Assembly: GCF_910593725.1 (NCBI RefSeq)
Contig: NZ_OU343031.1
Coordinates: forward strand, 434,001 to 498,000
Length of the DNA stretch: 64,000 nucleotides
From: Candidatus Vallotiella hemipterorum
GTDB lineage: Bacteria > Pseudomonadota > Gammaproteobacteria > Burkholderiales > Burkholderiaceae
Direction: 5' to 3'
In this document: piece by piece, positions 2,867 to 32,781 of the stretch
Layout of the letters: every line of letters begins with the position of its first letter
Numbering within the stretch: the stretch's first letter is position 1
Notes under the pieces: generated by a model
Told to the model about the DNA's origin: nothing
Database searches by the model: none
The model's input: only the letters and a program-made list of their open reading frames with translations
Translations under genes and position numbers: made by a program

Positions 2867-4398
2867 GTCGCTTTCCGCTGACGCCAGAGCAAATCGAGAA
2901 TGCAACTGCCGAGGTACTCGCATGGTTGCGCACCCGCCTTCTTGCGCCTCATGCACAACTGCATGTAGATAGTCGTGCGGTATGCAACGGTGATGTATTC
3001 ATCTCGTATACACTGGACGACACAAACAGTCATCTTTATATCGTGGATGCACTACAGCGTGGCGCGGCAGCGGTGCTCGTTCAAGCTGGTCAGCAGACCC
3101 CTATTAACCTGCCAGTGCTTGAAATCCCTGAACTTAAGCAGCTTGCTGGCTATATTGCGAGTGCATGGTATGGCAAGCCAAGTTGCGGCATGCTAGTAGT
3201 TGGCATAACTGGTACTAATGGTAAGACCACAACTAATCACTGGATTGCAGGGGCGTTGAGCAGCAGTGGCATTCCTTGTGCGATTATTGGAACATTAGGA
3301 ACTGGATTATTAGGGCATCTTTCCTATACCGGGTTTACAACCCCGGATGCACCACAGGTACACCATAGTCTTTCAGTGCTGCGCTCACTAGGCGCACACG
3401 CAGTTTCTATGGAAGTTTCATCTCATGCACTACATCAAGAGCGAGTGAATGGAGTCAATTTTGACATCGCGGTTTTTACTAACCTAACACAAGACCATTT
3501 AGATTATCACAAAGATCTTGCGTCGTACGAATCCGCTAAGGTACGGCTATTCGATTGGCCGAGTTTGCGCGCAGCAGTCATTAATCGAGACGATGAGGTT
3601 GGGCGACGGCTAATAAAGCATGTGGCCACGCGAGTACGTGTAATCTCGTATGGCATATCTTTGCCCTCTAGGGACAGCGATGCCTCGCTATATGCGATAG
3701 AAATCCGTGCTATTAACACCGGAACGGCTTTTACCGTGCTATCTGATTGGGGGCGCGCTGAGGTCGAAGTGAGCGCCTTAGGAGCATTTAATGTAGCCAA
3801 TCTGCTTTCTGTCCTCGGTGTACTACTGGCTGCTGACGTACCATTCGACACGGCAGTATCGCAGCTCGCTCAGTTGGAGCCAGTTAACGGCCGGATGCAG
3901 AAATTCGGAGGGCGCATAAATATGGGTGAGCCGTTAGTAATTGTTGATTACGCGCATACGCCGGATGCATTAGAAAAAACGCTCGAGGCCCTACGACAAA
4001 TTTCTACTCAGCGAGGCGGAAAACTTATCTGCGTCTTTGGTTGTGGGGGTGACCGTGATGCAGTAAAACGACCGATAATGGGGGCAATTGCCGAACGACT
4101 TGCCGATAGCGTTATCGTAACAAGCGATAACCCGCGTAGTGAACAGCCACTTTCAATTATTAAGCAAATCGTCGACGCGATGCGTGAACCCAAACGAGCA
4201 CGAATCATCGAGTATCGCGCTAGCGCGATACTCGATGCTGTTCGTGCCGCTGCTGCCGATGATGTTGTTCTAATCGCTGGAAAAGGACATGAAACAACAC
4301 AGGAAGTAATGGGTAGAAAGTTTCCGTTTTCTGATCAAAATCACGCACGTCTTGCGCTTGAATTATGTGCTATTCAAGCTCAAACAAAATCTGAATGA
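2863..4398 (+). CDS. murE: UDP-MurNAc-L-Ala-D-Glu:meso-diaminopimelate ligase MurE
   Basis: Adds meso-diaminopimelate to the UDP-MurNAc dipeptide in the cytoplasm using ATP. The 511-aa protein is full length. The ATP-binding motif GTNGKTTT lies at residues 117-124, and the DNPR motif that marks diaminopimelate-specific MurE is present in SDNPRSEQPLS near the C-terminus, as is GKGHETTQE. The start overlaps the ftsI stop by four bases, and the stop overlaps murF by four bases. The gene contains a 32-bp perfect palindrome at 4206-4237 (residues around IEYRASAILDA). Burkholderia MurE normally has Asp where this protein has Tyr in EYRAS. Confidence 0.97.
   Translation: MSRFPLTPEQIENATAEVLAWLRTRLLAPHAQLHVDSRAVCNGDVFISYTLDDTNSHLYIVDALQRGAAAVLVQAGQQTPINLPVLEIPELKQLAGYIASAWYGKPSCGMLVVGITGTNGKTTTNHWIAGALSSSGIPCAIIGTLGTGLLGHLSYTGFTTPDAPQVHHSLSVLRSLGAHAVSMEVSSHALHQERVNGVNFDIAVFTNLTQDHLDYHKDLASYESAKVRLFDWPSLRAAVINRDDEVGRRLIKHVATRVRVISYGISLPSRDSDASLYAIEIRAINTGTAFTVLSDWGRAEVEVSALGAFNVANLLSVLGVLLAADVPFDTAVSQLAQLEPVNGRMQKFGGRINMGEPLVIVDYAHTPDALEKTLEALRQISTQRGGKLICVFGCGGDRDAVKRPIMGAIAERLADSVIVTSDNPRSEQPLSIIKQIVDAMREPKRARIIEYRASAILDAVRAAAADDVVLIAGKGHETTQEVMGRKFPFSDQNHARLALELCAIQAQTKSE
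4206..4237. repeat. 32-bp perfect palindrome inside murE
   Basis: Two 16-base arms with no spacer, centred between 4221 and 4222 (centre GCGCT|AGCGC). It lies in the reading frame and encodes residues around E-Y-R-A-S-A-I-L-D. The murE frame is intact through it. Confidence 0.95.
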
Positions 4399-7026: not shown

Positions 7027-8538
7027 ATGTTTGGCAAGAAATTTAGAGAGAGACAGCGCCCAACGACGCTTGTTCTGGGACTCGGCGAATCGGGTCTAGC
7101 AATGGCTCGATGGTGTGTACGCTATGGTTGTCGCTTACACATAGCCGATACCCGAGCAGTGCCACCAAATCTTTTTAGATTAGCAGAGTTAGGTATCAAT
7201 GCTAAATTCGTTGGTGGTGCATTTAGCCCAGCATTACTTGATGACGGTGTAGAATTAATTGGCATTAGTCCAGGTTTATCGCCGTATAGTACAGACTTAG
7301 CCGAATTAATTCGTACAGCTCGTAAGTACAGTATTGAGGTATGGGGTGAGCTCGAGTTTTTTGCGCGGTCGTTGCGGATGCTAGCAAGAAATGGCTACCA
7401 ACCTAAGGTGCTCGCAATTACCGGAACGAACGGTAAGACAATAACTACATCGCTCACTGGGCTACTATGCGAACGTGCTGGTAAAAGCGTTGCAGTAGCC
7501 GGAAATATTAGTCCAGCAATACTCAACAAGATGGCTGAGGCTATTGACTCAAAAAAAATGCCCGATGTTTGGGTACTAGAGCTCTCTAGTTTTCAACTAG
7601 AGAGCTCGTACACATTTAAGCCTGACGCAGCGATTATACTCAATATTACGCAAGATCATCTAGACTGGCACAAAGGGCTAGATGCTTACATTAAGGCAAA
7701 AAGTCGGATTTTTGGGCCTTGCACGATGCGCGTTTTGAATCGCGATGATGCTCGGGTAATGGCATTCGTACCAACTAGCGATGCTACCGTTGCATATCAG
7801 ACCTTTGGGCTTAATATGCCGCAGAATATTGGCGACTACGGTATCCAATACGACGGAGATATCGCTTGGCTCGTCGAAGCATGCGATAGCAATAATATAT
7901 CTACTGAGTATCGTACGCCCGGGCGGCGCAAAAGCGCCGCCCGGGCGTACGATATCGTGATTAATCGACTTATACCTATAGATTCTCTACGCATCCGCGG
8001 CTTACATAACGCCTCGAATGCGATGGCCGCTGTTGCTTTAGCCAAGTCGATTGGTCTGCCAGTTTCAGCGTTACTATGTGGCTTGCGCGAGTATCGCGGG
8101 GAACCGCATCGCGTTGAATGGATTAGATCCATCGCTGGAGTCGACTATCTCGATGACAGCAAAGGTACTAACGTCGGCGCGACTGTAGCGGCGTTAGAAG
8201 GCCTTGCACAACGAATTGTATTGATCGCAGGTGGTGATGGCAAAGGGCAAAATTTTACGGCGCTGGTGCCAGCAGTCTCCCGCCACTGCCGAGCCGTGAT
8301 GTTAATTGGCCGGGACGCTCCTACATTGTATGAGGCATTGGCTAATACCAGTGTCCAACTGACTCTACATTTAAGCCTGCAGTCCGCAACACGTGCTGCA
8401 GCGTCTGTTGCTCAGCCGGGGGATGCGGTGCTGCTATCTCCTGCGTGCGCGAGCTTAGACATGTTTTCCGGATATGTACAGCGCGCACAGGTATTCCGAA
8501 GAGAGATCAAGGACATCGCCGCTGAAAAAGAAGGATAA
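7027..8538 (+). CDS. murD: UDP-MurNAc-L-alanine:D-glutamate ligase MurD
   Basis: Adds D-glutamate to UDP-MurNAc-L-Ala. The 503-aa protein is full length for Burkholderia, which has a characteristic linker before the C-terminal domain. An N-terminal nucleotide-binding region (LGLGESG) is followed by GTNGKT at residues 133-138; the next residue is Ile where most homologues have Thr. ELSSFQLE and [10 protein letters not shown] are conserved. The variable linker, around codon 300, carries a 46-base hairpin (7909-7954) encoding [13 protein letters not shown] in frame. It is 23 bases after mraY and one base before ftsW. Confidence 0.96.
7909..7954. repeat. Hairpin with 21-bp perfect stem and AAAA loop inside murD
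   Basis: Arms 7909-7929 and 7934-7954 are exact reverse complements, separated by AAAA. The core (CGCCCGGGCGGCGC) is far more GC-rich than the surrounding gene. The murD frame stays open through it, in the poorly conserved interdomain linker. Confidence 0.97.
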
Positions 8539-9832: not shown

Positions 9833-10935
9833 TGGCGGGCGGTACCGGAGGACACATTTTTCCCGGACTAGTGGTTGCGCAGCGGATGCGCGAGAAGGGC
9901 TGGCGAGTCGTATGGCTCGGCAATCCAAATGGATTGGAAGCAACACTAGTGCCTAAGCACGACATTCCAGTCGAATTTATCCATTTTGGTGGTATACGTG
10001 GCAAGAGTGTTACTACAAAAATATGCTTACCACTAAACCTACTACGCGCGTGCTTAGAAAGTATGGCAGTGCTTCGCCGGGTGCAGCCTGACGTTGTGCT
10101 CGGTATGGGGGGGCATATCACGTTTCCAGCCGGTTTAATATCAGTGCTTGTACGCATTCCACTGGTACTGCATGAGCAAAATTCGGTGGCAGGCTTAGCT
10201 AACAGTTTGTTAGCTAAGCCTGCCAGCCGTGTGCTAGTTGCTTTTCCAGATGTGCTGCCCGGTGCGCACTGGGTCGGAAACCCAATCCGTCCGGAGCTAG
10301 CTCTACTAACCCCGCCCGAAGTGCGGTACGCAGCGCGCACTGGCCCGTTACGAATTCTAGTAATCGGTGGCAGCCTTGGTGCCGCAGCACTGAATAAAAT
10401 AGTACCACGTGCTTTAGCGTTATTTGATCCATCTCGGCGGCCGTACGTTGTACATCAAGCCGGCACCAAGCATATCGAAACACTGCGCATACATTACGCG
10501 GAAGCGGGACTAGCGCAAGATAACGGTATCGAACTGGTTTCGTTCATCGAAGACATGGCGCACGCCTATGCTGAGACTGATCTCGTAATTTGTCGTGCTG
10601 GCGCGATAACCGTATCAGAAATTGCCGCTGTAGGCGTAGCGGCGCTGTTCATACCATTTCCATTCGCCGTTGATGACCATCAAACTGCAAATGCAGCATT
10701 TCTAGTTATGCATCACGCAGCGAATGTAATGCAACAAAATGAATTGTCAGCAGAGAAACTCGCAGACTGGATCGGGCAGCAGACGCGTGCTTCACTTATG
10801 AAAGTCGCAGTCTGTGCGCAGGAATTAGCTAAATGCGATGCTGCCGAATCCGTTGCACAAGTGTGTGCATCGCTCGTCACACGAGACGTAGCATCTAAAT
10901 CGGATAATGCACGGTCTAGTTCGTTAGGAAAGTAA
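9808..10935 (+). CDS. murG: UDP-GlcNAc:lipid I N-acetylglucosaminyltransferase MurG
   Basis: Converts lipid I to lipid II on the inner face of the membrane. The GT-B fold glycine-rich motif [10 protein letters not shown] is at residues 11-20, HEQNSVAGL and the second-domain GGSLGA motif follow, and [13 protein letters not shown] forms the donor-binding region. Length is 375 aa, normal. ATG 9808 is preceded by GAGGTAAG and lies inside the end of ftsW. The gene carries a perfect 16-bp-stem hairpin at 10188-10224 encoding [12 protein letters not shown]. Its stop overlaps the murC start (TAATG). Confidence 0.96.
10188..10224. repeat. Hairpin with 16-bp perfect stem inside murG
   Basis: Arms 10188-10203 and 10209-10224 are exact reverse complements with a 5-base loop (AGTTT). 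The arms encode AGLAN and LLAKPA. The Burkholderia protein in this segment is similar (AGLAN..LAK.A), so a natural near-palindrome probably existed before. Confidence 0.95.
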
Positions 10936-29718: not shown

Positions 29719-30030
29719 ATGTACGCGGTCGTAAAAACTGGTGGCAAGCAATATAAAGTTGCTACCGGAGAAAAATTAAAAATAGAACAGATACCAGCCG
29801 AAGTCGGCACTGAGATTACTCTAGACCAAGTGCTTGCAGTGGGTAAAGGCGAATCTATGAGGTTCGGTATTCCCTTGGTTAATGGGGCTTCTGTTAAAGC
29901 TACTATAGTAGCGCATGGACGGCATGCAAAAGTTATCATTTTTAAAATGCGTCGTAGAAAGCATTATCAGAAGCATAGCGGTCACCGTCAGAATTATACC
30001 GAATTACATATCGACGAAATTAAATCGTAA
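29719..30030 (+). CDS. rplU: 50S ribosomal protein bL21
   Basis: The 103-aa protein matches bL21 from end to end: [20 protein letters not shown], an [15 protein letters not shown] block and the C-terminal basic motif [20 protein letters not shown] that binds 23S rRNA. It is the first gene of the rplU-rpmA pair, read from the promoter at 29562-29590, with GCGAGG as a weak ribosome-binding site. It is divergent from the ispB pseudogene, a standard Burkholderia arrangement. Confidence 0.97.
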
Positions 30031-30048: not shown

Positions 30049-30309
30049 ATGGCGCATAAAAAAGCGGGTGGCTCTTCTCGGAATGGCCGAGATTCCGACA
30101 GTAAGCGGCTCGGTGTCAAGGTGTTCGGAGGACAGGCAATTAATTCTGGTGGAATCATCGTTCGTCAACGCGGTACTCGGATGCATGCCGGCGTCAACGT
30201 TGGGATTGGCAAAGACCATACTTTATTCGCTCTAATAGATGGATATGTCTTCTTTGCGATCAAAGGCCTAGCGAAGAAACATGTTGTTGGTGTAAGCCCG
30301 ACTACTTAA
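30049..30309 (+). CDS. rpmA: 50S ribosomal protein bL27
   Basis: The 86-aa protein has the bL27 N-terminus [20 protein letters not shown], which reaches the peptidyl transferase centre, and the motif [20 protein letters not shown]. It follows rplU after 18 bases and is co-transcribed. About 50 bases after the stop lies a 60-bp palindrome that should act as the transcription terminator before obg. Confidence 0.97.
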
Positions 30310-30359: not shown

Positions 30360-30419
30360 ATACCCCACTATTAATAAAAGGCCTCGAAATTTCGAGGCCT
30401 TTTATTAATAGTGGGGTAT
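30360..30419 (+). terminator. 60-bp perfect palindrome, probable rpmA terminator
   Basis: Bases 30360-30389 and 30390-30419 are exact reverse complements with no spacer; the centre is CTCGAAATTTCGAG. The inner part, AAAAGGCCTCGAAA with its complement followed by TTTTATT, has the form of a bidirectional intrinsic terminator. The outer arms (ATACCCCACTATTAAT) extend it well beyond what a terminator needs. Confidence 0.85.
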
Positions 30420-30464: not shown

Positions 30465-31550
<1,086 letters not shown>

Positions 31551-31662: not shown

Positions 31663-32781
31663 ATGCATTCAAGCATTGCTAATGCAAGACGGCTAATTGT
31701 AAAAGTAGGCTCAAGCTTAGTAACTAATAATGGACGCGGGCTGGATCATAACGCGATTAGGTGCTGGGCTTCTCAAATAGCTACGTTGCGTCAACAGGGA
31801 AAAGAAGTGGTATTAGTAAGTTCTGGAGCAATCGCGGAAGGCATGCAACGACTAGGCTGGAGCCGTCGTCCCTATAAGATTGCCAAACAACAGGCTGCAG
31901 CAGCGGTCGGCCAAATGGGGCTGGCACAAGTCTATGAAAGTCACTTTTCCAAATATTCAATCCGAACGGCGCAGATCCTGCTTACACACGCAGACCTTAT
32001 TGATCGAGAGCGGTACCTCAATGCGAGTTCAACGCTACTCACATTACTTAAGCTTGGCGTAGTGCCAATTGTTAATGAGAATGATACGGTTATCACCGAT
32101 GAAATTAAATTTGGAGATAATGACACATTAGCTGCATTAGTTACGAATTTAATTGAGGGAGATGTGCTAGTTATTCTGACTGACCAACATGGTTTATACA
32201 CAGCCGATCCGCGTAAGGATCCTTCTGCGACGCTAGTCAAAAAGGCTAATGCTGGTGATCCGGCATTAGAAATAATAGCGGGTAACACTAGTACAGGAAT
32301 TGGTCGGGGGGGAATGCTAACTAAAATACGGGCTGCTAAGCGCGCAGCATATAGTGGAGCAGACACGATAATCGCGAGTGGTAGGGAACCTAATGTACTA
32401 GTCCGGCTAGCTGCGGCAGAGCTCATTGGTACCCAACTTGCTGCACAGACTACTCGCATTACTTCGCGCAAGCAATGGATTGCAAACCATCTACAAGTGC
32501 GCGGTTATATAGTCATTGATTCCGGTGCGATCGAAAAGTTAACTTTTGGTGGAACAAGCCTGTTACCAGTTGGTATTGTCGATGTACAAGGAATTTTTAC
32601 CCGGGGCGAAGTAATTGCATGCTTAAACGAAACGGGCCACGAGGTAGCTCGTGGATTGACAAACTACAGTAGCGTCGAAACGAAAATGATTAGCCGTCAT
32701 CCCAGCGTAGAAATTAACTTGATTCTTGGTTATATGCTTGAGCCAGAAGTCATCCATCGAAATAACCTTGTAATATTCTAG
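31663..32781 (+). CDS. proB: Glutamate 5-kinase ProB
   Basis: First step of proline synthesis. The 372-aa protein has the amino-acid kinase domain ([14 protein letters not shown] at residues 10-23, [38 protein letters not shown]) and a C-terminal PUA domain beginning near residue 280. It starts 112 bases after obg, in the same order as in Burkholderia, with AGGAT upstream. Its partners proA and proC are not in the window, so the pathway cannot be judged. Confidence 0.95.

Follow-up and report, generated by a model that had tools for sequence, protein, structure and literature searches.

A perfect 60-bp palindrome behind rpmA in Candidatus Vallotiella hemipterorum is probably a template-switch scar on an ordinary terminator

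What lengthened the stem-loop behind rpmA in Candidatus Vallotiella hemipterorum into a perfect, spacer-free palindrome of 60 bp? The palindrome was found in a 64-kb stretch of this genome (the window), in which rplU, rpmA, the palindrome, obgE and proB follow one another with all genes on the + strand. We propose that its outer arms are probably a template-switch scar on an ordinary terminator, one of many such scars in these symbionts. The locus was compared between the focal genome (G000), three other reduced genomes, namely G002 and G005 (1.2 Mb each) and Candidatus Vallotia lariciata (G004), the closest named relative found, and the large-genome congeners G001, G003, G006 and G007 (3.3–3.8 Mb).

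Results

The palindrome (30360..30419, assigned to neither strand) consists of two arms of 30 nt each, at 30360-30389 and 30390-30419, that are 100% complementary and 0 nt apart, as the first-pass annotation had recorded, and it is the longest inverted repeat in the 64 kb scanned. At the window's composition, ∼7e-14 such palindromes are expected per 64 kb, which rules out a chance origin, and the probability that the 16 outer pairs arose by luck, given the terminator core, is ∼3e-10. Pairing breaks off sharply at both borders, where 10 of 40 flanking positions pair, which is the chance level. The predicted fold of the palindrome stretch is very stable as RNA (z −13.4), and the corresponding value for single-stranded DNA is z −14.2. 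A genome-wide search found the palindrome in one place only within the 1.196 Mb genome, which rules out a REP or other dispersed palindromic element. In a plasmid collection, the hits were all partial, at 65-72% identity; those that carried an annotation were rplU, rpmA or obgE, and none was specific to the palindrome.

Palindromes are difficult for sequencing and assembly, and the first-pass annotation had allowed that the outer arms might be an artefact, missing from the real chromosome. However, the published genome of the adelgid symbiont Vallotia is reported to have been closed at 323x with a hybrid of 2x100 Illumina and Nanopore reads (PMC8692619), and reads of 2x100 are long enough to cross 60 bp. 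That genome is given as a chromosome of 1,123,864 bp and a plasmid of 72,431 bp (PMC8692619); the two contigs of the assembly used here add up to 1,196,295 bp. Repeats of this class are also present elsewhere in the clade, among others in V. lariciata, whose assembly used only Illumina reads, and the repeats that lie inside genes preserve the reading frame. Given this read coverage and the like repeats in related genomes, an artefact is very improbable.

The palindrome is preceded by rplU (29719..30030, +), which encodes ribosomal protein L21, and rpmA (30049..30309, +), which encodes ribosomal protein L27, and is followed in the same direction by the genes for the GTPase ObgE (obgE, 30489..31550, +) and for ProB (proB, 31663-32781, +). 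A pattern search for a GC-rich stem-loop followed by a T-run placed an intrinsic terminator 3′ of rpmA. The inner 28 bases, AAAAGGCCTCGAAATTTCGAGGCCTTTT (30376..30403, +), are accordingly predicted from their sequence to be an ordinary Rho-independent terminator, of a kind conserved between rpmA and obgE across the family. The upstream outer arm (30360..30375, +) lies outside the A-tract and the downstream outer arm (30404..30419, +) outside the T-tract, and neither is conserved. From the way in which intrinsic terminators work, a transcript that ends at the U-tract would exclude the downstream outer arm, and the outer arms are therefore presumably dispensable for termination. This agrees with the first-pass annotation, which had described an ordinary inner terminator with redundant outer arms.

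The same type of stem stands between rpmA and obgE in the congeners and at most Burkholderia-type loci. The palindrome arms are centred on this older, shorter inverted repeat: perfect arms measure 14 bp in V. lariciata and 7-17 in the other relatives where a perfect stem was found, compared with 30 in the focal genome, 28 (spacer 7) in G002 and 22 (spacer 5) in G005. Neither V. lariciata nor any large-genome congener has the extension, and the outer arms of G000, G002 and G005 are unlike one another, so that across the congeners the core is kept while the outer arms differ or are missing. The arms are thus lineage-specific, and the recent formation considered in the first-pass annotation is borne out in the sense that the extension arose within this lineage. 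The age of the arms was addressed by anchored alignment with the relatives' flanks, a weak comparison of 30 uncorrected tests. In G000 it matched the upstream arm to that of V. lariciata (p=0.018) but the downstream arm to no relative, and in G002 and G005 it was the downstream arms that resembled those of relatives (best p 0.032 and 0.0067, respectively). By eye, the downstream arm of G000 is partly matchable to relatives.

The rpmA–obgE terminator is the only one extended past its T-run in G000, G002 and G005, of 5, 5 and 9 terminator-like stems, respectively; given the first, the rough chance that the same terminator is extended in all three is 1/5 × 1/9, or ∼0.02. Such recurrence might mean that selection keeps the long stem, and its perfect pairing, for a role in RNA, either as a reinforced barrier to read-through before obgE or as a double-stranded processing site in read-through transcripts. 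The very stable RNA fold agrees with this, as does the fact that the arms pair perfectly in each of the three genomes while their sequences differ. However, long arms are missing from V. lariciata and from every large-genome congener, the downstream outer arm lies past the U-tract and would fall outside the terminated transcript, and many other long perfect repeats in these genomes have no terminator core; selection for an RNA element is unlikely. The shared position in three reduced genomes, together with short motifs common to the arms that can be seen by eye, would also fit a single ancient extension that the reduced genomes inherited from their common ancestor, that repeated template-switch correction kept perfect as the sequence drifted, and that was lost in V. 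lariciata. Anchored alignment, however, gave no similarity between the arms of G000 and G002 (p 0.84 and 0.87), and G005 shares 82% amino-acid identity with the large-genome G003, which lacks the extension, but only 76-77% with the other reduced genomes. An ancestral extension is quite unlikely.

Template switching, as opposed to independent point mutation, predicts that change is confined to one arm, and repeats inside genes were compared codon by codon with orthologues. Three in-gene repeats of the clade have one ancestral arm and one arm that is its copied-in complement. The first is the window's second long perfect repeat, in murD (7909..7954, +; arms 21, spacer 4), where bases found in no relative make up 6/21 of the left arm and 1/21 of the right; the left arm has been overwritten relative to the orthologues and brings amino-acid changes. 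The second, in an ftsI-like gene of V. lariciata that was named from its place and motif, has 0/18 such bases on the left and 5/18 on the right. The third, in a gene of G005, has 10/22 on the left, including a 6-nt in-frame insertion, and 2/22 on the right. The altered arm departs from the background rate of its gene in each case (p=0.001 for murD, 0.018 for the ftsI-like gene and 0.0015 for the G005 gene), whereas the opposite arm shows no departure, and the reading frame is kept. We interpret this one-sided overwriting as the footprint of template switching. The asymmetry is not significant in the murG repeat (10187..10225, +; arms 18, spacer 3) or in the shorter in-gene repeats, which weakens the scar reading to that extent. 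In murE, a perfect 32-bp spacer-free palindrome (4206-4237) is shared without change by V. lariciata and is almost complete in other congeners, and may mostly reflect coding constraint.

The load of long perfect repeats was estimated by a scan for perfect arms of at least 18 nt with a spacer of at most 10, using 400-kb stretches of the reduced genomes. The scan gave 11 repeats per 400 kb in G000, 14 in V. lariciata (two of them copies of one sequence), 5 in G002 (after removal of two runs of N) and 11 in G005, compared with 1 in 400 kb of G003 and none in the 200 kb scanned from each of G017, G018 and E. coli K-12. The sums, for focal genomes that were not blindly chosen and with G016 omitted from both sides, are 41 in 1.6 Mb for the four reduced genomes versus 1 in 1.0 Mb for the four controls (p=4e-8). 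This genome-wide excess persists when non-coding DNA is roughly allowed for (p=4e-5), a correction in which 35%, from the published coding density of 64.9% for the focal genome (PMC8692619), was applied to all four reduced genomes and 20% was assumed for the controls. First-order Markov sequences contained zero such repeats. A spacer of 0 is the most frequent, in 16/59 repeats with arms of at least 16. The pattern is not unique to the clade, since 6 repeats, with arms of up to 32, lie in the first 400 kb of G016, a 1.2 Mb genome from a different genus in which mutS is intact. Endosymbionts are reported to be over-represented among genomes with a high frequency of inverted repeats (PMC10434271). 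The gene-poor stretches of the focal genome hold many AT-rich perfect repeats with arms of 20-25 and no terminator core.

The gene content of these genomes suggests which repair losses may have let the palindrome form or persist. The first-pass annotation had supposed a weak palindrome defence and had proposed a search for sbcC and sbcD. SbcD has no match anywhere in the genus, and SbcC has only the weak matches expected from other ATPases, none above background; exonuclease I was found neither in the genus nor in the sampled family members. The supposition stands as far as these genes are missing. However, they are missing also from the large congeners with an ordinary, short terminator, so that SbcCD loss is insufficient and is ruled out as the sole cause. 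The accompanying statement that palindromes of this size are normally cut by SbcCD is not established in vivo: the in vitro limit of SbcCD hairpin cleavage is reported to correspond to palindromes of 20-36 bp (PMC4245961), so that one of 60 bp could be a substrate, but the in vivo SbcCD work that we found used palindromes of 246-480 bp. The genes for exonuclease VII, RecJ and RecB are intact in the focal genome, which rules out the loss of any of them as the cause. The match above the recB cut-off lies on the second contig, the plasmid, in all four reduced genomes (G000:C2:24565-28245 in the focal genome), and a plasmid-borne recB is a possible reason for plasmid retention besides argG and tyrB.

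Mismatch repair is eroded in the reduced genomes: in all four, MutS is broken into fragments with stops and MutL is missing or a fragment, whereas the large congeners have a whole MutS. The published list of Vallotia pseudogenes includes mutL, mutS, recG and recQ (PMC8692619). Outside the genus, however, mismatch-repair loss and repeat load do not track, which weakens the scar reading in this respect: G018 lacks MutS and has no long repeat in its 200 kb, while G016 has MutS together with its 6 repeats. Mismatch-repair loss as the sole cause is ruled out by these two genomes. Of the reduced genomes, only G002, the one with the fewest long repeats, has a whole RecG, while the other three have a broken one; this is a hint, from four genomes only, that the state of RecG tracks the number of long repeats. 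In the focal genome, recG (G000:C1:524730-526538) is in fragments with stops. A larger amount of non-coding DNA probably contributes, as does drift.

Discussion

We infer that the kind of event recorded in the three overwritten genes also made the palindrome at 30360-30419. The terminator of the rplU–rpmA operon would serve as a fold-back seed during DNA replication. A fork stalled at the terminator hairpin would allow the nascent 3′ end to switch template, either onto itself or onto the opposite strand, to copy outward past the old stem and then to realign, so that one flank would be rewritten as the reverse complement of its partner and a stem of ∼14 bp would become a 30-bp perfect palindrome. 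The outer arms would thus be a mutational scar with no required function, and such scars would build up in small, drift-prone genomes with eroded repair. The scar reading is weakened by the alignments of the arms at this locus, which do not tell the older arm from the newer, and by the extension of the same terminator in three of the four reduced genomes, which is more than a random scar suggests. Tentatively, and with less confidence than we place in the scar itself, the rpmA–obgE terminator might be a recurrent hot spot where, in lineages of insect symbionts, long perfect arms are built anew time after time by template switching. Together with the clade-wide load of scars, which includes amino-acid changes in cell-wall genes, this would make template switching a major uncounted source of mutation after mismatch-repair loss.

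The fixed differences between these symbionts would be a natural record of how template switching converts terminators and parts of genes to long perfect inverted repeats, in which each event can rewrite several codons together in essential genes. The dozens of such repeats in this symbiont and its relatives suggest that template-switch error has a durable imprint on genomes undergoing reduction, and if the load is tied to repair-gene loss, long repeats would serve as a marker from which that loss can be read. The mechanism is already known; neither the repeat load of this clade nor the in-gene cases appear to have been described in the portions of the literature available to us, and a term search of the accessible Vallotia and Mycetohabitans genome literature found no mention of the palindrome.

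Several known systems resemble the locus in part. As in other intrinsic terminators, a GC-rich stem of a type common to relatives, with an A-tract before it and a T-tract after it, lies just 3′ of rpmA, but here the arms extend 16 bp past both tracts without mismatch. Template switching at quasipalindromes is established in E. coli, where RecB opposes it (PMC7202029, PMC6357072), and in yeast (PMC3820800). As described for E. coli lacZ reporters (PMC7202029) and for yeast without RNase H2 (PMC3820800), such correction or extension turns imperfect flanks into perfect arms, and the one-arm overwriting elsewhere in the clade is of the same form. The present cases, however, are fixed species differences rather than measured mutations, and at rpmA–obgE the template arm is not told apart from its copy. 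An RNA-gene hairpin has been argued to stem from one template-switch event (PMC8794818), which likewise yields a long perfect stem at once, whereas here an existing terminator was lengthened into an untranscribed or dispensable flank. Perfect inverted repeats within protein-coding genes are also reported for Nematomorpha (PMC6649704), where they are mitochondrial and reach 284 bp, while those in the genes of these bacteria span at most ∼50 bp.
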